This document shows positions 14,598 to 46,418 of a stretch of 64,000 nt of DNA, one piece after another. Location: the NCBI RefSeq assembly GCF_963576675.1, contig NC_088911.1, forward strand, positions 86,457,256 through 86,521,255, written 5' to 3'. Source of the DNA: Euphorbia lathyris. Taxonomy: Eukaryota > Streptophyta > Magnoliopsida > Malpighiales > Euphorbiaceae. Positions within the stretch are counted from its first letter, which is position 1. The number at the start of each line of letters is the position of its first letter. Both the position numbers and the translations under genes were made by a program. The notes beneath the pieces were generated by a model that was given only the letters and a program-made list of their open reading frames with translations, made no database searches and was not told the origin of the DNA.

Positions 14598-14779
14598 CAG
14601 TAGCGTTCACTTGGATCCTGAATGATCAAATGAATTTGGTCATTCACCGTTAGATCTAGGGTCATTAAATCTACACCTTAGGATATTTTGAATCTCCATC
14701 GTATGATTTTAATGAGCCTAGATCTAACAGTGAATTACCAAATTCATTTGATCATTCAGGGTCCAGGTGAACGCTACTG
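14598..14779. mobile_element. Fold-back MITE, probably Mutator-like
   Basis: The ends are about 42-bp inverted repeats starting CAGTAGCGTTCAC; the inner arm contains GTTAGATCT on one side and AGATCTAAC on the other. The flanks TTGCTGAAATG and TTGCTAAATG look like a 10-bp target duplication with one indel, which fits Mutator-type MITEs. No coding sequence. Confidence 0.8.
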
Positions 14780-21393: not shown

Positions 21394-21794
21394 TGATAGG
21401 GGTCAAAAACCCCTATCTTTGGGTACAGTTTTAGGACGGGTTTTAGAGTTATTTGGTTAATAAGCGAGCAATTCTCGCATTTAAATGCTTTTGTGTGAGT
21501 TAGTTAGGAATTGGAAACGTTCTATTTACTTTTCATCGTTTAGGCTCGTTTTGTGATCAATTTAGGCAAATACGGCCGAAATAGCATGCATAGTAGAATT
21601 TCGTTATCTTTTGAAGCTAATTGGTCCGTCAAAGTCGCACCAAACGAAGCGTTTGCTCAAAATAGGCGATTGACGGATCAATTTGGCTTTTGCACTAATG
21701 TTTTCTGGAGTTTTTATGCGTGTGCAGGTGTAAGTTCGGACGAAAAAGGGCATAGAAGTCACTCGGCATGAATCGAGCACGCTTCGGGCGAAAA

Positions 21795-21972
21795 CGCTCG
21801 GTGAGCAGGGCCCCACGGGCCATTTCTGCTCGTTGAGCAGGCCCTTGGAGGCCTGCTCGGCGAGCAGGAGCCTGCTCGGTGAGCAGGCCACCAGGCGCCT
21901 GCTCGGCGAGCAGGGGGCTGCTCAGCGCGAGCAGCCTTGCTCGCCGAGCAGCCTTCCCTGCTCGGCGAGCAG
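21795..21972. repeat. Cluster of 8 palindromes CTGCTCG-N-CGAGCAG
   Basis: GCTCG cores start at 21796, 21828, 21855, 21874, 21901, 21920, 21939 and 21960, each followed by its complement CGAGC. The cluster lies 118 bp upstream of the TATA box of the A LTR. The second LTR has four copies. Confidence 0.9.
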
Positions 21973-29224: not shown

Positions 29225-30794
29225 TGATAGGGGTCAAAAACCCCTATCTTTGGGTACGGTTTTAGGACGGGTTTTAGAGTTATTTGGTTAATAAGCGAGC
29301 AATTCTCGCATTTATATGCTTTTGTGTGAGTTAGTTAGGAATTGGAAACGTTCTATTTACTTTTCGTCGTTTAGGCTCATTTTGTGATCAATTTAGGCAA
29401 ATACGGCCGAAATAGCATGCATAGTAGAATTCCGTTATCTTTTGAAGCTAATTGGCCCTTCAAAGTCGCACCAAACGAAGCGTTTGCTCAAAATAGGCGA
29501 TTGACGGATCAATTTGGCTTTTGCATTAATGTTTTCTGGAGTTTTTATGCGTGTGCAGGTGTAAGTTCGGACGAAAAAGGGCATAGAAGTCACTCGGCAT
29601 GAATCGAGCACGCTTCGGGCGAAAACGCTCGGCGAGCAGGGCCCCACGGGCCATTTCTGCTCGCCGAGCAGGCTCCTGGTGGCCTGCTCGCCGAGCAGCC
29701 TTCCCTGCTCGGCGAGCAGCCCTGCGGGAATTGGTCAAAAAGACCAATTCCGCCCCCACGAAGCCACGTTCGGCCCCATGTCTTCCTACACCAACAAGGA
29801 CACGAAAATAGGTCAAAACGAGGCCCGAGACGCGTCTATAAATAGGATTTTTCCATTGTAAACTAGAGATCTTTTTCCTTTGTAATTTTCTTAGCTTTTC
29901 ACCTTGAGAAATCCTCTCCACCTCCTCCATATCCTTCAAGCCTCCATTGAAGACACCTCCGAAGCTCCATTCACCGAGGATTGCTCAAGCTTCATCCTTA
30001 AATCCTAGAAAGACGCCTGCATTGGTAGACAGGTTCCCTGAAAGGGATTTTTCTTCTTTTACATTCTGTCTAGCCTCTGATACATGCAATGAATTCTAGG
30101 TTTATTGTAACTTCGTGACAATGTTTCCATCTTTGATATATATTATAGTTCTTGTTTATTCAATTATTTTGATGTTTTAATCTTTGTCTTACGCTTTGTC
30201 TGATTGGTTTAACTCATTCGATAATCCCAAAATTAGGTTGGCACATATTGCGAGCTGAATCTGACCTAGTCAGTGCCTATAGGATTGACGACCCTATAGA
30301 AGATTAAGCCCAAATTACTGAGCCTTAGAGCTAGTTTCGGCCTTACAAGGGAATCACGAACTAAGGACTTTAGGAGGATAGGTCGGGTTAATCGCCTTGG
30401 ACACAAGTGACTTAGGTTTCAATTCAATTGTTTAAACATTCTATTTTCATTATCATCGTATCCCTTCATGTTCCTTCGGTTAATTGCATTGGTAAAAGAT
30501 CACTTAGGAGTAGTTTAACTTAATTAGGGGTAGAGTAACTTAATTAGGCGTAGAATAACTTAGTTAGAATCGGATAACTTAGCTAGGAGTAGCGTAATTC
30601 AACCTAGGAGTAGACTAATTTAATCAAACAACTCAAAACCCCCTAAGCCTAGATAACATCCGAGATCGAGTAGCTCGGTACTTACAGAAATAAATCCTGT
30701 GGATGATAACCTGGACTTAAACTAGAAATTTATTACTTGATAACGACGGGGTACACTTATCCCTCAGATCGGGTTCTTCACGGAATCCGCATCA
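29225..30794 (+). repeat. 3' LTR of element A
   Basis: 1570 bp, TGATAGGGG to CCGCATCA. It is shorter than the solo copy mainly because it has four instead of eight palindromes (29626-29719). A TATA box is at 29837-29844. It is followed by S LTR sequence at the same breakpoint as the solo copy. Confidence 0.93.
29626..29719. repeat. Cluster of 4 palindromes in A 3' LTR
   Basis: Four copies of the CTGCTCG-N-CGAGCAG type, again 118 bp upstream of the TATA box. Confidence 0.88.
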
Positions 30795-32924: not shown

Positions 32925-34743
32925 TAATAGGGGTATTTTACCCCTATCTTTTAGCGTGATTTACGGGATGATTTTGGATAAAATAAGTAATTTTAATTGC
33001 AAAAATAAAGTATTTTGAATAAATAAAGAAATAAAAATAAATCTCGTACTTTTAGTTTAATTCCCTCGTTTTTGATTAGTTTAGGAAATAAAAACGTCAA
33101 GCTAACTCGGCTCTCAAGTGTTGTATTTCAGGTACAAGAAAGGAGCAAAAACCCACTTCATACGCGGGGCGTAGTAACCCTTACGCGGGGCGTGAAACAT
33201 GATGCCAGAAATAATTGCCCTATCCGCAGGCACCATGTGGAACTGACTCAGCATACGCGGGGCGTATGCCATTTTACGCGGGGCGTATGACACATGTCGG
33301 CAATAATCGGCCTAATCCTGAAAGTCAGACTGCATTGTCTCCCAGAGTCAACTATCCATACGCGGGGTGTATCATTATATACGTGGGGCGTATAAGGCAG
33401 TTCTTCAATGTAAAAAGATCAGAGACACATTTGCGCGGGGCGTACTTCATCTACGCACGGTGTAAATACTCCAATTCTAGCAATAAAACTTTAGAGACTC
33501 AAACACACGGGGCGTACTTCAGCTACGCAGGGCGTGTTTGGGAACAATTAGACACGGAATTGGTCCACATGCAGGAGATTTCTGACGGAATGGGCACCTA
33601 CGCGGGGCGTAAACCACCTTACGCGGGGCGTATCACGGGATTTCTGCACCAAATAATGTTGCTCCATGCTTGTGCTTTGTGAAATTACCAACTTGCCCTT
33701 GCTTGATGTCTATAAATAGATAGCTTTTGAACTTCATTATACACCAATTGCATACTAGAGAGCTATACTATACTCTTTTCTTTTCTTGTAATTTAGATTC
33801 AGATTTTTATAGCTAAACTCTCCCCCTCGAGAGCTTGTTCGGTTGTTCTGGCGTTCCATCAAAGTTCCGCTCCATCATTCATCACCAAGCTCGAGAGTTC
33901 CACCTCCACGACCTAGGAGACGGCTTTGAGTCCGGTTAGCTAGTTCCAAGGGCGAATTCTCCCTTTTTACTTGCTAATTAGCTTGTACTCTTCCTATGTA
34001 CTAGGCTTGGTTGTATTTCATCTATACACTTTCCATATTTATAATTTATGATTCATAATCTCTATTTCCCTTTACGTATTAATGTTTATTACTTGTTTTG
34101 ATATTGATAATTGACTATTGTGTAGGAGCACGCGATTACCGCCGCCATCCGGGCTATCTTTAGGGAATTATATAGGTGTTGCCCTACCAGAAGTGACAAA
34201 CTGGAAACCATAGGAATTGACAAGCCACGAAACTTACGGGCCCTAATTTCTAGTTCCCCCGCATTAGACACGCCTTGACTAGGAATCACGTAGTCTAAGT
34301 ACTTCACGGGTCGGTCCTACTACATTTGGTCGTCTTTGCAAGAATAAACCATTATCCGTATACATTTAGAGTCGTTATCTATCGTGGTTATAACTTATCA
34401 TACACGCCCCGCTTCATAGAGTTTTAGTTACACAAATCTGTGTCGCTAATAGTTAGGAATAGTGTGTAATTGTGTCTTACTTTACCCCAAGGTAATCACC
34501 GCTTAAATAACATACGAAACCGAGTCGTCTAATACTTGTAATTATAAATCCCGTGGATTCGATACCCGGTCTTAACCGGATTATTACTTGATACGACGGG
34601 GTACACTTGCCCCTAAGTAGTCGTAGCGTCTAGTAGAGTTAAGAGCAATTTATAAAGACCAAATCCATAGACATAGCACATTCACCGCAATACACATTTA
34701 ATCGTCATTAGAAAAGCTCTACACCTAGACTTTACGCGCATCA
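32925..34743 (+). repeat. 5' LTR of element B
   Basis: 1819 bp. The first dinucleotide is TA where the 3' LTR has TG. TATA box TATAAATA at 33711-33718. Palindrome array at 33161-33632. It ends GCGCATCA at 34743. Confidence 0.95.
33161..33632. repeat. Six pairs of spaced palindromes TACGC-GGG-GCGTA in B 5' LTR
   Basis: Motif starts: 33161/33182, 33254/33275, 33359/33380, 33432/33452, 33504/33524, 33599/33620. Within a pair the offset is 20-21 bp; between pairs it is 93, 105, 73, 72 and 95 bp. Most copies are exact or have one or two changes. The array ends 79 bp before the TATA box, in U3. Confidence 0.93.
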
Positions 34744-34749
34744 AGTTTT

Positions 34750-34767
34750 TGGCGCCGTTGCCGGGGA
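34750..34767 (+). promoter_or_regulatory. Primer binding site of element B
   Basis: TGGCGCCGTTGCCGGGGA, six bases after the 5' LTR end, identical to the site in G1. Confidence 0.95.
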
Positions 34768-34895: not shown

Positions 34896-36739
34896 ATGCA
34901 CACCCGATCTAAAAGTGATTCTCTCGTACCTATTGATCTCGAAATTGAATGTACTCTTTGTAGGTTACATAGAGAGAGAATGGCAAATCTCAACGATGAA
35001 GCTAACTAGCCCGAGCTCAACCAATGGGGGTCGGAACAACCCATGAATAACGACCGTAATGGTGAAGGCAACGACACGCGTTCGATGTTGGAGATTCTTG
35101 CTCCACAACGTCCTCAAATCCGCCACGGAATCGTTGCCCCCACCATTTCGGCCGACACATTTGAAATAAAGCCTAGCATGATCCAATTAATCCAACAATT
35201 CGGTCAATTCGGAGGGGAACCCCATGAAAACCCTAACAAACACCTTGATAAATTTCTTATGTGTGCCGAAACTTCACGGCAAAATAATGTTCCGGTAGAC
35301 GCCGTCCAACTAAAACTTTTTCCTTTTTCCTTGACAGGACAAGCGTTGGAATGGTTGCGCTCATTAGAGGTGGGATCGATCACATCATGGAAGGAACTCG
35401 AAAAGGAATTCCTATCTTACTATTTCCCGCCCTCTAAAATGGTTAAATTGAGAAAAGATATCACTTCCTTTCGGCAACTTAGATACGAGGCCCTTCACTC
35501 AACTTGGGCTAGGTTCCGAAAACTGCTCCGAAACTGTCCCCATCACGACATCCCTAAGCATGATTTAGTAAGTACTTTTTATCATGGTCTAACACCGACT
35601 AATCGTGCAACTGTTGATTCTGCCGCAGGTGGGGATTTGTTTCGCAAATCGGCAAGCGAGGCATATGAGCTCATTCACGAATTAGCTAGGAAAAGCGTCT
35701 AATGGCAAGAAGATCGGCTTGCCAGATTCTCACAACACCAAACCTTTTCCGTAGAAGACGAAGCTCCCACCACCTTCATGATCGAAATGAATAAAAAATT
35801 GGACACCTTAATGGCGCAAATGAGCCTCCAAAACTCAGCACAAATCTTAATGTGCTCTCACTGTGGTGGTGGCCACCAAGGTAAGGATTGTCAAGCCAGT
35901 AGCCCTTTTGCCGGTGACTTCGAAAGCGTAAGTTATGTAGGGGGCAACAAAGGTATAATTCTCATCATAACTCTTATTCTAACACGCACGCTTTTCACCA
36001 CCATAACAATAACAATAACGGAAGGAGGCTTCAACACATGTCATCTTACGATAACGGGCGGAACGTGTTGAAGCCCCCGTCCGAACCCCTTGGTAAATTT
36101 GTGGGACAAGGGTTGGGCCAATCTCCTCTTGACCAAGAAGAAAAAAATTCACATTCTCCTAGCAATGCGCAAGACGCAATGGTAATTGATCTTCTTAAAG
36201 AAATATCTTCCCGTCTTGCTAACAACGAAGCATTTTGCAGGGACTTGGGACAGCAAGTGGCCCAATTAGGTCGCCAACAATAAGGGGGACAACATGGGTC
36301 TCCCCCGACTAGCACCGAACTAAACCCGAGACAAAGAGAATGGGAGACCGCACAAGCAATAACTATTCGTAGTGGTAAGGGTTTGGAACCACCGGTTCCA
36401 AAGGCGACCCCACAGGCTCCACAAGTAAGTAATGAACCGGAAGTGGTAAGCAACCCCGGTTCGGATCCAAAACACTCAACTTCCTCGGATAAGAATAAAA
36501 ACGTGTGTGACCCAATTAGAGCTTACGTACCAAAGCTCCCTTTTCCACAACGACTTAAAAAGGAAAAATTGGACCACCAATATGGCAAGTTTTTGGAAAT
36601 CTTTAAGAAACTTCATATTAACATTCCCCTTGCGGAAGCATTGGAGCAAATGCCCACATATGCGAAGTTTCTTAAAGAAATCCTCGCCAAAAAGAGGAAG
36701 TTGGATTATAATGAAACGGTAGCGCTCACGGAGGAATGA
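34896..36739 (+). pseudogene. Element B gag
   Basis: The start is the ATG at 34896 (MHTRSKSDSLVPID), in frame with the main gag block from 35043. Capsid motifs are HLDKFLMCAETS, LKLFPFSLTGQALEWL, FLSYYFPPSKMVKL and NCPHHDIPKHDLVSTFYHG. The zinc knuckle CSHCGGGHQGKDC is near 35852-35890. The C-terminal block has KLHINIPLAEALEQMPTYAK. Stops at 35007 (TAG), 35700 (TAA) and 36281 (TAA) all fit Gln codons changed by C to T; a frameshift lies near 35950. The next stop, TGA near 36737, fits a Cys codon instead. Confidence 0.9.
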
Positions 36740-37540
36740 TCCGCAATTATAACAAACAAACTCCCCCCTAAACTCAAGGATTTAGGTAGTTTTTCTATCC
36801 CTTGCACGATTGGAAATGTCGAGTTTAGAAGAGCTTTATGTGATTTAGGTGCTAGCATCAATCTAATGCCTTTATCTGTATTCAGGAAGCTCGGTTTGGG
36901 AGAGCCAAAGCCTACCAATATGACGCTCTAGTTGGCCGATAGATCCATTTCCCGGCCAAAAGGAGTAGTGGAGGATGTCTAAGTGAAAGTGGACAACTTC
37001 ATTTTCCCCGCCGATTTCGTAGTGCTCGATATGGCGGAAGACGACTCGGTACCAATCCTCCTAGGACGACCATTTCTTGCAACCGGTAGGACTCTCATTG
37101 ATGTCCACGAAGGTAAGCTCATCCTACGGTTGCAAGACGAAGAGGTAGAATTTAACGTGTACAATTCCATGAAATTTCCATCTAATACCTTGGCGGATTG
37201 TAACTTTTTAAATTCCGTAGACTCTATTGATCCTTTTGTTGGAGAATTTTGTGGTAGGGCTTTTGCGGAAACCTCTTCGGGAATAGGTGATAATGAGCAT
37301 TTGGATGAGGAGCCATTGAACAAGTCCTTTGAGTACTCCTCCGAAATAGAACGATGTCTGTTGGCAAGGAGCCGGTTTGAGGGTTTGGACCGAGATAGCA
37401 AAGCAAAGCCGAAGTCCTCTCTCGAGGAGCCTCCAACTTTGGAACTTAAACCCTTGCCTCCTAATTTCTTACCGGTTGTTATTTCTTCGCTTTTGACAGC
37501 AGAAATGGAGGAAGCACTAATCGCGGTGTTACAAAAACAC
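36740..37540 (+). pseudogene. Element B protease and linker
   Basis: Retropepsin-like protease with DLGASINLMP near 36845 and LLGRPFLATGRTLID near 37058. Stops at 36929 (TAG within MTL/LADR) and about 36978 (TAA) break it. It is followed by a variable linker of about 130 residues up to the RT start. Confidence 0.85.
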
Positions 37541-38349
37541 AAAGGCGCATTTGGGTGGACCATTCACGACATAAAAGGGATCAGCCCCACCATCTGCATA
37601 CACCGCATCTTTATGGAGGATAAAGTCAAGCCCTCCGTTCAGCCGCAACGACGGCTTAACCCCAATATGAAGGAGGTAGTGAAAGTCGAGGTAATCAAAA
37701 TCCTCGACGCAGGTATAATCTTCCTTATCTCTGACAGTCCATGGGTTAGCCCGGTCCAATGTGTCCCCAAAAAGGGAGGCACAACGGTGACGGAAAATGA
37801 TCAAGGGGAGTTAATCCCCACACGAAAAGTAACCGGGTGGCGAGTATGCATTGATTACAGAAAACTGAACGAAGCCACCCGAAAAGATCATTTCCCCTTG
37901 CCGTTCATCGACCAAATGTTGGAAAGAATGGTGGGTCATAAATTCTTTTGCACCCTCGATGGCTTATCCGGCTATATGCAAATTCCCGTTGATCCTTCGG
38001 ATCAAGAGAAAACGACATTCACTTGTCCGTATGGGACATTTGCATATAGGCGGATGCCGTTCGGGCTTTGTAATGCCCCCGCCACTTTTCAGTGATGCAT
38101 GACGGCTATATTCTCCGAAATGATTGAGGACTTCATGGAAGTCTTCATGGACGATTTTTCTGTTTTTGGGTCGTCCTTTGATATTTGTTTGAGCAATCTT
38201 GATAAAGTTCTCCAACGTTGTGAAGACACTAACCTCGCTCTTAGTTGGAAAAAGTGTCAATTTATGGTTCAAGATTGTATTGTTTTGGGACACAAGGTGT
38301 CCGGGGAGGGGATCGAGGTCGACCCGGCCAAGATCGAGGTAATTGAAAA
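37541..38349 (+). pseudogene. Element B reverse transcriptase, first part
   Basis: RT motifs are RRLNPNMKEVV, SPVQCVPKKGGTTV, GWRVCIDYRKLNEATRKDHF, TFTCPYGTFAYRRMPFGLCN and the catalytic box FMDDFSVFG at about 38140. TGA at 38093-38095 fits CGA to TGA. The frame is cut at 38349 by the solo LTR and resumes without loss at 40777. Confidence 0.92.
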
Positions 38350-40771
38350 TGTCACACCCGACCCTTCTTGACCTCAATCGGCATCGGGCGTGATAATAAA
38401 AGAGATCAAATCAACACTTAAGAGTCTCCAAATTATCCAAATATCATAAATCTCATACTTTTCAAGATTCTTCTTTGATAAATTTTAAAATAAATCCAAA
38501 TTCCTACTACATTAGCCATTTAAGAACCTCAACATATTTACCAACTTCATCATATTACACTTAAATACTAAAGTTCTAATAATAATTCTAACAATAAGCA
38601 ACAACTTCTGACCATCGCCTAATCGGTCGTTAACATTCTCTCTATCTTGTACTTGTTCACCTAAAAACATTAAAACATTTAAAAAGGTGAGACAAAAATC
38701 TCAGTAAGCAATTATCAACTACATAAAGTACTTATACTCAAAATAGCTATATATATATAGTTTAGTTTTCAAAATGCATCATATAAATTTCATATACTTA
38801 AAAATGAACACTTTATGGATTCAACCATAATAAAATAGTCAAATGACACTTTTAACAAAATCTGGAACTTAAAATATCAAGTTTGCTATCATTTCTCAAA
38901 ATGCCAAGCCTATTCAAAACGTAAATCACCGTATTAAAACACTTAATATAAAACTCATGTTCAAAATAGCTATATACATTTATTTGGTTAAAATCCCAAC
39001 TATACAAAAAAAATAGGTTTGCAATTAACCATTTACTCAAATCAACCGTAAATCAATAAATACTTCACAAATCGTATTTCGGTAAATACTTCATAAATCG
39101 TATATATTTCACAAACCGTATATCAATAAATAATTCGCAAACCGTATGTCAATAAATACTTCATAAATCATATCTCGATAAATACTTCATAAATTGTACC
39201 CCGATAAATACTTCATAAATCGTATCTCAATAAATACTTCACAAACCATATATCAATAAATAATTCGCAAACCGTATGTCAATAAATACTTCATAAATCA
39301 TATCTCGATAAATACTTCATAAATTGTACCCCGATAAATACTTCATAAATCGTATCTCAATAAATACTTCACAAACCGTATCCATCCGAGAGATAATCCC
39401 CGTATGTATCAATCCCCACAATATAATAGAATCGAGATATCTCATAATTTGTCTAGCCCGCATGGTCTTACTCAACACTTCTTTGCCATACCCGATAGGT
39501 CTTTCAACTGTGTACACAGGCCGTATTTCTCACTAAATACGGACTTTAATAAAAACCACCTATCCGGATTACCCTTGATGGATACTAAAAATATTATAAT
39601 TTCATAATATAATTTAAAATCAGAAATATATATATATCAAAATATATATAACTCATAAACAAACATCATAAAGTTTTATCAACACCCTTACTCAATCAAT
39701 TTCCAAAATATTCTATCATAAATCATTATTGTACTAAAATCATCAATAAATAATTTAAAAATATACTTTATTTCAATAAATCATAAATTCATCAAAATTG
39801 CAACTTTAACAATCTTTAATTAAAACTAAAATTTACTTTGAGAAATAAATTTATAGAAAATCGCTTATAATATATACTTATACTTGTGTTCATAAATCAA
39901 TTATCAATGGGTTTCTCAATACACTTCCATTTTTTTAAATTCAACTCTTCAAAATATCAAATCTTACACAAATAGTAATCAAATATAGTGAAAGTCATCA
40001 AAACAAAATCCAAATAATGTATACATAAATATATATTATATGTTGAAATTGACATGCAAATACATATATAATTACTTGAACTTAACTTTAAGCTCATGTT
40101 AACAACTAAATCATAGAAACTCCAATTAATCAAATGCATGTCAAAAATCACCACAAAAATTCAAATTTATGGTAAATATAGAGTTATACATATATATATA
40201 TACATAAAAACTTAAAAGGGTAGTTGATAATTACTTACTTTAGCACTAATTGAGAGAAAAACACATTAAGACCTCAAATCCACCACCATAATCTGCCTAG
40301 GTCGAATACTATGTAGGATTCTCCAAATCAAAATCACACCGACCACAATGTGTATTAGGATGTCTAGAAGCTACTGTAAAAAAATCAGCTCGATCCGACG
40401 GTTCAATCTCTAGATATCAGGGTTTGATCAAAGCTATGTGAAATTGGGTAAATGAAGAACAAGGAAAGAGATGATGGAGATGAATATGGGTTCATGTGAT
40501 GTGGAGCTCGAAATTTGCTCCTCCAATTCCCTAATATCCATGTCTAGTTTTGTGGGATTTTTGTTCCCAATGAGGGAAAATCTCCATTTTGATCCCTCTA
40601 AACTTTAACTTCTTTTAAAACTTACCCTAATCTTTTAATTTTACACTTAAAACATAAAATTGACCTCCAAACTATATCCATAATACTCAATTAACTCTCC
40701 AATCAATAAATAAATGTAATATAACCTTATATTATGGCATAATAACTAAAATTAGGGACACGAATGTGACA
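38350..40771 (+). mobile_element. Solo LTR inserted in RT of element B
   Basis: 2422 bp from TGTCACACCCGACCC to GAATGTGACA, flanked by GAAAA on both sides (38345-38349, 40772-40776). No coding region, PBS or PPT is inside, so it is a solo LTR or other non-coding LTR derivative. It is very AT-rich and contains a higher-order tandem repeat at about 39050-39380. Its first 35 bases resemble the minus-strand start of the small element at 58598-58950. Confidence 0.88.
39050..39380. repeat. Higher-order tandem repeat, 130 bp = 5 x 26 bp
   Basis: Units of about 26 bp of the form AATAAATACTTCATAAATCG. Five diverged units form a block that repeats with a 130-bp shift (compare 39121 and 39251, TATCAATAAATAATTCGC). 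Confidence 0.85.
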
Positions 40772-41400
40772 GAAAAACTACCTCCACCAATTAACGTAAA
40801 AGGAATTCGGAGCTTTTTAGGTCATGCGGGGTTCTATAGACGATTCATCAAAGACTTCTCTAAGATAGCAACCCCCTTGACCCAGCTCCTCATAAAGGAT
40901 GCAGAATTTAATTTTTCCGACCAATGTTTACTTGCGTTTAACACACTTAAGGATAAGTTAATTAATGCACCTATCATGGTGAAACCCGATTGGAACCTCC
41001 CCTTTGAATTGATGTGTGATGCGAATGATTTGGCTGTCGGTGCATGTTTGGGCCAACGGGTGGATAAACTCTTCCGCCCTATCTATTATGCGAGCAAAAC
41101 GCTCAATGAGGCCCAAAAAAAACTATTCCATCACGGAAAAGGAGATGCTTGCCGTTGTTTTTGCTTTCGATAAATTTAGGTCATATCTTGTGTTATCCAA
41201 AATTATCGTATACACTGACCACGCAGCTCTCAAGTACTTGATGACTAAGCAGGACGCCAAACCACGCTTGATACGGTGGATCCTACTCCTACAAGAATTC
41301 GACATCGAGATCAAAGATAAAAAAGGAGTGGAGAATGTTGTGGCCGACCATCTCTCTCGCTTACAAGGCGAGCAAGACGAATATCCGGAAGCTATTGAAA
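40772..41400 (+). pseudogene. Element B RT end and RNase H
   Basis: It continues RT with GIRSFLGHAGFYRRFIKDFS and goes into RNase H with LMCDANDLAVGACLGQR, IYYASKTLNEAQ, TEKEMLAVVFAFDKF, VYTDHAALKYL and the end VVADHLSRL. A one-base frameshift in an A run near 41115 separates the two halves. Confidence 0.92.
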
Positions 41401-42732
41401 TTAAGGAGACTTTTCCCGATGAAGCACTCTACGCGGTAACATCTTTCCCTTGGTATGCCGATATGGCAAACTTCAAAGCCGGTAATATTCTTCCCCCGCA
41501 CCTTACATATGAGCAGCGTAAGAAATTCTTTCACGATGCTAAGCATTACTTTTGGGAAGAACCCTATCTGTTCAAATCTTGTGCCGATAACATTATTCGT
41601 AGGTGTATACCGGAAGAAGAAGTTAATCATGTGCTCCATATGTGTCACACCCAAGAGCCGGGGGGGCCATTTTGGCCCTAGTCGAACAATGGCAAAAGTC
41701 TTACAATGTGGGTTTTATTGGCCTACTTTATCCAAAGATTCCCACAACTTCGTCAAATCATGTGACGCTTGTCAAAGGAGCGGAAACATTTCCCGAAAAC
41801 ATGAAATGCTCCAACAGGGAATCTTAGTTTGCGAACTTTTTGACGTATGGGGGATAGACTTCATGGGACCTTTCCCTAAGTCGCATGGCAACGCTTACAT
41901 CCTTGTAGCGGTTGATTATGTCTCCAAATGGGTAGAGGTCGTTGCCTTACCTTCAAACGACTCTAAAGTGGTAGGGAAATTCATAAAGAAAAACATTTTC
42001 ACTCGGTTCGGGACCCCTCGGACTATCATTAGCGACGGGGGATCCCACTTTTGCAACCGACAATTCAATCAACTCTTACTTAAATATGGGGTTGCACACC
42101 GAGTCTCTACACCCTACCACCCGCAAACTAGTGGGCAAGTTGAGGTTTCTAACCGCGAACTAAAACGCATCTTAGAAAAAACGGTTAACGCCTCTAGGAA
42201 AGACTGGAGCTTGAAGCTCGATGATGCTCTTTGGGCTTACCGCATGACGTTTAAAACGCCCATCGGGATGTCCCCCTATCGTCTAGTTTTTGGAAAGTCA
42301 TGTCATTTACCCGTAGAACTAGAACATAAAGCCTACTGGGCGCTGAAATTTTTAAATTTTGACATGCAGGCTGTAGGAGAACACCGCCTCCTCCAACTTA
42401 ATACTCTTGATGAACTCCGCTTGGGGTCATATGAAAATGCCAAACTCTATAAAGAACGTACCAAGCGGTGGCACGATAAGCATATCCAAATTCGGGAGTT
42501 CAACACGGGGGATCAAGTTCTCCTCTACAATTCTCGCCTCCGGTTATTCCCCGGAAAATTGAAAAGTCGGTGGTCGGGACCATACACTGTCGTCAACGTG
42601 CACCCCTCCGGAGCAATTGAAATCCAAGGTCCCGATAATGCAATCCTACGAGTCAATGGCCACCGCCTGAAGATATACCACGGCGGCGATTTTCTACAAC
42701 AAGGCGAAACCACACTCCTCGCACCACCTTAA
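41401..42732 (+). pseudogene. Element B integrase
   Basis: The HHCC domain is split by a one-base frameshift in a G run near 41660. The DDE core is [25 protein letters not shown] and [20 protein letters not shown]. The C-terminal domain has [20 protein letters not shown] and ends at the stop 42730-42732. From about 41700 to the stop the frame is open, so this is the best preserved coding segment in the window. Confidence 0.93.
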
Positions 42733-42884: not shown

Positions 42885-43142
42885 TACGCGGGGCGTCTCC
42901 CTACGCACGCCTCGCGTATTTGTGTCTCTGATCCAAAATTCTATAAGGGAAATCATTTACGCAGGGCGTAACTCTTCTTACGCCCCGCGTCTGAATTCCT
43001 TTCCGTGGTTCCTACAGTTCAGGAACTCAAACACGCGGAGCGCCCCGTTACTGCGCCCCGCGTATTTGAGTCTCTGCCTAAAAAACACCACAAAACATAG
43101 TGGTTACGCGGGGCGCCCCTATGGGCGCGCCCCGCGTAACCC
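42885..43142. repeat. Four inverted pairs of the TACGC palindrome after B integrase
   Basis: Motif starts are 42885/42906, 42958/42979, 43032/43052 and 43105/43126. The pair offset is 20-21 bp and the pair-to-pair period is 73, 74, 73 bp. In each pair the first motif has a GGG-type centre and the second a CCC-type centre, so each pair forms one longer hairpin; the fourth (43103-43142) has near-perfect arms of about 18 bp. Confidence 0.92.
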
Positions 43143-44620: not shown

Positions 44621-46418
44621 TGATAGGGGTATTTTACCCCTATCTTTTAGTGTGATTTACGGGATGATTTTGGATAAAATAAGTAAGTTTAATTGCAAAA
44701 ATAAAGTATTTTGAATAAATAAAGAAATAAAAATAAATCTCGTACTTTTAGTTTAATTCCCTCGTTTTTTATTAGTTTAGGAATTAAAAACGTCAAGCTA
44801 ACTCGGCTCTCAAGTGTTGTATTTCAGGTACAAGAAAGGAGCAAAAACCCACTTCATACGCGGGGCGTAGTAACCCTTACGCGGGGCGTGAAACATGATG
44901 CCAGAAATAATTGCCCTATCCGCAGGCACCATGTGGAACTGACTCAGCATACGCGGGGCGTATGCCATTTTACGCGGGGCGTATGACACATATCGGCAAT
45001 AATCGGCCTAATCATGAAAGTCAGACTGCATTGTCTCCCAGAGTCAACTAACCATACGCGGGGCGTATAAGGCAGTTCTTCAATGTAAAAAGATCAGAGA
45101 CACATTTGCGCGGGGCGTACTTCATCTACGCACGGCGTAAATACTCCAATTCTAGCAATAAAACTTCAGAGACTCAAACACGCGGGGCGTACTTCAGCTA
45201 CACAGGGCGTGTTTGGGAACAATTAGACACGGAATTGGTCCACATGCAGGAGATTTCTGAGGGAATGGGCACCTACGCGGGGCGTAAACCACCTTACGCG
45301 GGGCGTATCACGGGATTTCTGCACCAAATAATGTTGCTCCATGCTTGTGCTTTGTGAAATTACCAACTTGCCCTTGCTTGATGTCTATAAATAGATAGCT
45401 TTTGAACTTCATTATACACCAATTGCATACTAGAGAGCTATACTATACTCTTTTCTTTTCTTGTAATTTAGATTCAGATTTTTGTAGCTAAACTCTCCCC
45501 CTCGAGAGCTTGTTCGGTTGTTCCGGCGTTCCATCAAAGTTTCGCTCCATCATTCATCACTAAGCTCGAGAGTTCCACCTCCACGACCTAGGAGATGGCT
45601 TTGAGTCCGGTTAGCTAGTTCCAAGGGCGGATTCTCCCTTTTTACTTGCTAATTAGCTTGTACTCTTCCTATGTACTAGGCTTGGTTGCATTTCATCTAT
45701 ACACTTTCCATATTTATAATTTATGATTCATAATCTCTATTTCCCTTTACGTATTAATGTTTATTACTTGTTTTGATATTGATAATTGACTATTGTGTAG
45801 GAGCACGCGATTACCGCCGCCATCCGGGCTATCTTTAGGGAATTATATAGGTGTTTCCCTACCAGAAGTGACAAACCGGAAACCGTAGGAATTGACAAGC
45901 CACGGAACTTACGGGCCCTAATTTCTAGTTCCCCCGCATTAGACACGCCTTGACTAGGAATCACGTAGTCTAAGTACTTCACGGGTCGTTCCTACTACAT
46001 TTGGTCGTCTTTGCAAGAATAAACCATTATCCGTATACATTTAGAGTCGTTATCTATCGTGGTTATAACTTATCATACACGCCCCGCTTCATAGAGTTTT
46101 AGTTACACAAATCTGTGTCGCCAATAGTTAGGAATAGTGTGTAATTGTGTCTTACTTTACCCCAAGGTAATCACCGCTTAAATAACATACGAAACCGAGT
46201 CATCTAATACTTGTAATTATAAATCCCGTGGATTCGATACCCGGTCTTAACCGGATTATTACTTGATACGACGGGGTACACTTGCCCCTAAGTAGTCGTA
46301 GCGTCTAGTAGAGTTAAGAGCAATTTATAAAGACCAAATCCATAGACATAGCACATTCACCGCAATACACATTTAATCGTCATTAGAAAAGCTTTACACC
46401 TAGACTTTACGCGCATCA
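44621..46418 (+). repeat. 3' LTR of element B
   Basis: 1798 bp, TGATAGGGG to GCGCATCA. TATA box at 45386-45393. Palindrome array 44857-45307 with the same offsets as in the 5' LTR, except that one motif (the sixth) and 21 bp are missing. Confidence 0.95.

Follow-up and report, generated by a model that had tools for sequence, protein, structure and literature searches.

Element C and its palindrome arrays

The window, that is, the whole 64-kb stretch of DNA analyzed (C2:86457256-86521255), carries an LTR retrotransposon, element C, with the following features.

32925..34743, plus strand: 5' LTR of element C, Ty3/gypsy and Athila-like; CTACC flanks the element on both sides
33711..33719, plus strand: TATA box TATAAATAG of the LTR promoter, assigned by sequence
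34750..34766, plus strand: primer binding site TGGCGCCGTTGCCGGGG
35010..35702, plus strand: gag piece (PF03732)
36983..38095, plus strand: reverse transcriptase (RT) piece (PF00078)
40664..41681, plus strand: RNase H pieces (PF17919, PF17917), in two frames
41440..42732, plus strand: integrase piece (PF17921, PF00665)
44621..46418, plus strand: 3' LTR of element C

The domain pieces follow the order gag, RT, RNase H, integrase, and element C is therefore of the Ty3/gypsy type. We class it as Athila-like on the basis of the primer site TGGCGCCGTTGCCGGGG at 34750, which we take to be of the Athila type, the phrasing of the LTR and PPT, which is presumably Athila-like as well, and the absence of the additional RNase H (aRH) from its nine ORF pieces, whose reading frames are broken. 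Athila elements are defined as members of the OTA superclade without the aRH of Tat, according to the part of the classification consulted (PMC6317226). The two LTRs are 98.4% alike, with 28 differences in 1798 aligned bases and a 21-bp unit present in one of them; the 5' LTR opens with TA and the 3' LTR with TG. Of the 120 matches listed for the integrase piece, the one with the highest identity comes from Euphorbia lathyris (82%, covering 75% of the query). Scans of the 64-kb window with Rfam (gathering threshold) and for tRNAs gave no match. Between the RT and RNase H pieces, 13 copies of a 26-bp tandem repeat (39053-39382) perhaps belong to another insertion, and elsewhere in the window an imperfect palindrome of about 180 bp (14598-14779) has a two-strand self-match of 85%.

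The palindromic sites of element C are found in the U3 region of both LTRs and again after pol.

33161..33194, plus strand: U3 pair 1, offset 21
33254..33287, plus strand: U3 pair 2, offset 21, exact at both sites
33359..33392, plus strand: U3 pair 3, offset 21; the 3' LTR lacks one of its units
33432..33464, plus strand: U3 pair 4, offset 20
33504..33536, plus strand: U3 pair 5, offset 20
33599..33632, plus strand: U3 pair 6, offset 21, exact at both sites
42885..43138, no strand assigned: internal array of four pairs (42885/42906, 42958/42979, 43032/43052, 43105/43126)
44857..45307, plus strand: array in the 3' LTR, 11 sites

The sequence-only reading had placed twelve copies of a spaced palindrome, in six pairs, in U3 of this element. 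All twelve sites were recovered, starting at 33161, 33182, 33254, 33275, 33359, 33380, 33432, 33452, 33504, 33524, 33599, and 33620, and the offsets within pairs (21, 21, 21, 20, 20, 21 bp) and between pairs (93, 105, 73, 72, 95 bp) were reproduced, as was the position of the TATA box TATAAATAG at 33711, 79 bp past the array end at 33632. The positions stood, but the copies are less exact than had been stated: five of the 12 are exact, four have one mismatch, two have two, and one has three. Their number far exceeds chance: shuffling gives a mean of 0.01 for TACGCNNNGCGTA, which occurs 13 times in the window, and of 3.64 for TACGCGGGGCGTA with no more than three mismatches, which occurs 50 times.

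The array in the 3' LTR differs by the loss of one 21-bp unit of pair 3. Between the two LTRs as aligned, all three motif changes are CpG transitions, compared with none of the five changes in array gaps, which is the pattern expected if the sites were methylated after insertion. At 33380-33392 a C-to-T change makes the site TACGTGGGG, which contains ACGTGG, a word that we take to be an ABRE-like core. New regulatory words of the kind exemplified by TACGTGGGG may arise as dead copies decay.

The internal array, which the earlier reading had overlooked, lies directly after the integrase piece and advances in steps of 73, 74, and 73 bp. The second site of each of its pairs has an inverted centre (C-rich versus G-rich), and the site at 43032 differs at four bases. 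In part, its flanks share 11-13 bases with U3 gaps read in reverse complement. Among 20 stretches upstream of other LTR arrays, 11 resemble the internal-array stretch of element C; nine of these 11 contain at least four such sites, up to five pairs, and the other two contain one site and none. In 12 stretches after pol, which may be decayed copies and 11 of which were scanned up to about 460 bp short of the LTR, the longest stop-free frame beyond the internal array is 98 aa.

Conservation of sites and of pair spacing

Genome-wide counts covered the 1.02-Gb genome. Exact pairs with a spacer of 5-11 bases numbered 2754 (1312 + 1442), of which 2741 (1310 + 1431) had a spacer of exactly 8 bases; the reversed-pattern control gave 0 in both counts. 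At 90 loci, 262 of the 268 consecutive core-site offsets of no more than 45 bp were 20 or 21 (211 at 21, 51 at 20, 4 at 42, 1 at 41, 1 at 23). The 211 offsets of 21 enclosed 82 different 8-base sequences (mean identity 0.38), and thus the spacer is fixed in length and free in sequence. These spacers are G-poor on the strand that carries the GNG motif centre. No exact pair was found in viral contigs, and the plasmid collection gave no match. A phage-like contig that emerged from the viral contigs with a looser pattern (L001) was rejected as coincidental, having one exact site in all.

Conservation across the LTR family was assessed with two sets of loci. The first, 60 loci picked by an exact pair and hence biased towards conserved motifs, were mostly laid out alike, holding 7 to 16 sites and differing by whole units gained or lost, for example of 21 or 104 bp. 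The second was picked by the first bases of the LTR: 35 ATTTT-loop starts were present among the first 100 listed of 6131, the 13 already in the exact-pair set were omitted, and 20 of the remaining 22 were taken. This omission tilts the set towards decayed sites, that is, against the reading of the sites as a binding array. Four of the 20 LTRs were dropped for other DNA that interrupts before or inside the array; the 16 uninterrupted LTRs all have the array, at 9 to 12 sites each. L095 and L096, considered as array-less copies, were rejected because both are interrupted by other DNA. Their starts lie 12 kb apart; both cease to resemble the LTR at about base 170, and over a length of 1.09 kb they are 98% alike.

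In the 16 LTRs, transversion diversity per site was 0.019 in the motifs, 0.075 in the gaps, and 0.174 in the within-pair spacers, which are the fastest-changing part measured; the flanks gave 0.070 and 0.132. None of 5000 permutations gave a motif value as low relative to the gaps. When A/T motif positions were set against gap sites with an A/T majority, the difference in the 16 LTRs was not significant (0.123 versus 0.158, p 0.14). Transversions shared by at least three copies were rarer in motifs than in gaps (0.013 versus 0.089 per site, p 0.001); private transversions showed a smaller difference (0.064 versus 0.126 per site, p 0.05). The ratio of private to shared changes in these LTRs (10:2 versus 34:24) lay in the direction of selection without reaching significance (p 0.19); nor did it do so for pairs 4 and 5 only in a larger set (4:0 versus 53:38, p 0.15) or in the biased exact-pair set (p 0.49). 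Within the site, A2-C5 and C10-T12 are nearly invariant for non-CpG changes in the 16 LTRs, variation is greatest at the dyad base 7, and the outermost bases also vary. The sequence-only reading survives this comparison: across the family the motifs stay in place with the sites of each pair two turns apart, and change accumulates more slowly in the motifs than in the gaps. As a reading of these alignments, it is well supported that the sites persist because they are bound by something.

Helical phase and the history of the array

The six pairs align best at 10.42 bp per turn (R 0.96), compared with R 0.79 at 10.5 bp. Random offsets of 60-120 bp equaled the phasing of this array with p 0.003, or 0.013 if one 72/73 offset is dropped as a duplication. 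The 16 arrays of the LTR-start set had a median R of 0.96 and a lowest R of 0.78. These arrays all derive from one arrangement, and their first site lies at a distance from the LTR start that is as nearly constant as the phase; therefore they do not count as independent evidence, and the conservation of phase within the family is mostly inherited. Independent hints come from the indels of a diverged relative, from nine array gaps, and from the steps of a second repeat family.

These hints bear on an alternative in which the spacing would reflect how the array arose, as a by-product of its history: a palindrome pair within a 73-bp module was duplicated, exchange between palindromes inserted or deleted units of 21, 72/73, and 104 bp, so that the sites stayed in register whether used or not, and the phase was never selected, although the sites may be bound. 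An old 73-bp module is indeed present, and the earlier statement that no simple tandem repeat explains the array was thus half right. Its companion, that the gap sequence is not repeated, likewise holds in part. Some gaps look like decayed repeats. Gaps 3 and 4 are alike (p 0.007), and the internal-array gaps, read in reverse complement, share 11-13 exact bases with them (p 0.003, the smallest value that this test could give); the likeness of gaps 1 and 2 is weaker (p 0.06), all three p values being uncorrected for 132 comparisons. This weak homology between gaps, the unit-sized gains and losses (21, 104 bp) among the 60 arrays, and the 21-bp unit by which the LTRs of element C itself differ are all consistent with such a history. 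However, the offsets of 72, 84, and 74 bp lie near whole turns and are not copies of the 52-bp one; nine gaps of 38-40 nt in three arrays have a median ungapped identity of only 0.33; and the diverged relative L056 has a gap 2 shorter by exactly 10 bp net, reached through three separate indels (5, 4, 1). Four further loci (L106, L107, L132, L133) show the same 74-bp offset as L056 and may share its indel history. Offsets of 68, 69, 70, and 71 occur as off-phase exceptions.

The same sites, paired at 21 bp and in steps of 51-52 bp, recur in a second repeat family of seven loci, L069 among them. Its copies come in twos, about 5.6 to 15 kb apart among the matches listed, and are probably LTRs. 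The gaps and flanks of L069 showed no similarity to those of the element C array beyond chance (120 tests, lowest p 0.012), and the two families are alike only around the motif pairs, with same-strand alignments of no more than 53 bp.

A sister family, consisting of element B and its relatives, has LTR starts like those of element C and, in the matching place, an array built from another palindrome, CTGCTCGNCGAGCAG.

21794..21972, plus strand: comparison array of CTGCTCGNCGAGCAG in an LTR of element B
29625..29719, plus strand: comparison array, shorter, in the other LTR of element B

At least three copies of CTGCTCGNCGAGCAG with no more than four mismatches were found in 18 of 20 LTRs of this family, commonly at offsets of 27, 32, 21, 23, 19, and 22. 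These arrays are unphased (median R 0.45, one of 15 below p 0.05, among 15 arrays with at least five copies). A palindrome array before the TATA box is thus common to both families, and phase is not a necessary part of it. The labile, unphased palindromes of the sister family also agree with the by-product history, which we judge, with all these points in view, to be somewhat unlikely. In one sister-family LTR with an AAAAA loop (L112:400-660, from the LTR start), the array is now a regular 23-bp tandem repeat. The palindromes at 907-1466, in one LTR of element A (minus strand), which is the third LTR element in the window, were considered as a third LTR array and rejected, being part of a MITE-like insertion that is absent from the other LTR; this insertion has inverted ends (AGGGATGGCAACCGG...) and many ACGGGTA motifs near them.

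The 73-bp steps and the 10.42-bp phase could also mean that the array sets the rotational position of a nucleosome, with GC-rich sites on one face at every whole turn and 73 bp corresponding to half a core particle. Such positioning fails to explain why an 11-13-bp word is kept, as opposed to GC-rich sequence in general, and we regard it as extremely improbable. Selection of the helical phase itself is plausible, as judged from the arrangement of the sites.

A candidate dimer-binding array and its known relatives

We favor the reading, with a probability of roughly 0.55, that the array comprises multiple binding sites, held under constraint, for a dimeric protein, and that it probably acts as an enhancer. 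Dimer binding fits, because the array precedes the TATA box and its sites have near-dyad symmetry with a variable dyad base. The earlier proposal of a dimer-bound regulatory array is supported in part. In the mechanism we envisage, each 11-13-bp site (ACGC-GNG-GCGT, with a variable dyad base) would be bound by a putative protein dimer, and two sites two helical turns apart would put two dimers on one face of the DNA. The next pair, 5, 7, or 8 turns on, would follow on that face, so that the whole block would be presented to the promoter 79 bp downstream. The second copy of the module, after pol, has the second site of each pair inverted at its centre, and the array gains and loses whole units, probably by exchange between sites. 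From the pattern of the sites we infer the protein, its dimeric state, activation over repression, and, beyond pair spacing, phase as a kept feature. A broader proposal, which we put forward tentatively, is that plant gypsy elements carry a phase-selected protein scaffold with free spacer and gap sequence, the module being placed in U3 and after pol and common to a second, seemingly unrelated family, so that one protein could act on both.

The closest known counterpart, as far as the consulted part of the description goes, is the palindromic repeated motif (RM) of the Ty1/copia Sireviruses, which was reported before the TATA box in 13 Sireviruses, was found also in the linker in nine of the 13, nearly always upstream of ENV, and was called Sirevirus-specific (Bousios et al., 2010; PMC2829016). 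Both systems have many short GC-rich palindromes that vary between families, form a cluster in the LTR before the TATA box, and recur in further copies after pol, as far as that part of the report shows. The resemblance in layout is striking for elements of two superfamilies. Where membership in the RM group asks for at least eight copies of one dyad-symmetric motif per element, element C has 12 + 11 in its LTRs and eight internally; its cluster at 33161-33632 likewise lies upstream of the TATA box at 33711. The domain order of element C, however, makes its host Ty3/gypsy and not Ty1/copia, and 12 of the 13 published motifs have a CGG-CCG core in place of ACGC-GNG-GCGT. The pairs at 21 bp and the near-whole-turn steps of element C are absent from the RM description, in the part consulted (PMC2829016). 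The Sirevirus linker copies, as described there, nearly all precede ENV, whereas those of element C are followed by no recognizable ENV gene in the 12 possibly decayed stretches (frames of at most 98 aa; 11 stretches scanned short of the LTR).

In maize Sireviruses the palindrome-rich LTR region is a small-RNA hotspot, according to partial accounts of that work (Bousios et al., 2016, via PMC10760457, PMC5311732); as in element C, the palindromes lie in the regulatory part of the LTR, where sequence changes fast. The pairs of element C could accordingly be imagined as RNA or single-strand hairpins that serve as small-RNA templates or in processing of the element RNA, as proposed for the maize palindromes, which gather small RNAs in the accounts cited (PMC10760457, PMC5311732). 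Compared with shuffles, the internal array folds much more strongly (z -9.3), with one long stem per pair; the U3 array as a unit shows no such advantage (z -0.8), and its pairs meet GGG against GGG. Four of five single pairs folded (one U3, two internal, one of element B) gave z -3.5 to -6.7, and the fifth, from U3, gave z -1.0. A count of paired changes, comparing stem and palindrome models, showed no clear preference for a stem, and in the 5' LTR the U3 lies upstream of the presumed transcription start. Taken as a whole, this makes a hairpin role unlikely.

VANDAL elements are DNA transposons. Their VANC protein suggests another possibility, that the sites are targets of an anti-silencing protein encoded by the element or by a partner element. 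VANDAL motif arrays resemble those of element C in being dense, family-specific, non-coding, unlike between related families, and dynamic in copy number through turnover of units, as far as the partial source shows (PMC5735166). The CpG-dense sites of element C also seem to decay by methylation, given the three of three inter-LTR motif changes that are CpG transitions. On the other hand, the VANDAL motif, YAGTATTAY, is non-palindromic and depends on an element-coded VANC in the same source (PMC5735166); no candidate for a protein of this type was found in the stretches after pol (12 stretches, 11 of them scanned without the last ~460 bp before the LTR; stop-free frames beyond the array of at most 98 aa) or, as an extra domain, among the nine ORF pieces. 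We thus hold an anti-silencing target to be very unlikely. Retand elements share with element C family-specific repeats between pol and the 3' LTR; theirs are tandem repeats with antisense TRP28 ORFs, and palindromic pairs mirrored in U3 go unmentioned in the part of the report consulted (PMC11963269). A literature search for palindromic arrays in Athila or gypsy LTRs gave no report among the matches listed.

If the dimer-binding reading is true, LTR palindrome arrays, described as specific to the Ty1/copia Sireviruses, extend to Ty3/gypsy elements and occupy the same two places. The element C family, the phased second family, and the unphased sister family would form a natural series for a direct test of whether phase is needed in a plant enhancer. 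With thousands of exact pairs in one genome, the arrays would be likely to bring about changes in the regulation of genes in their vicinity.
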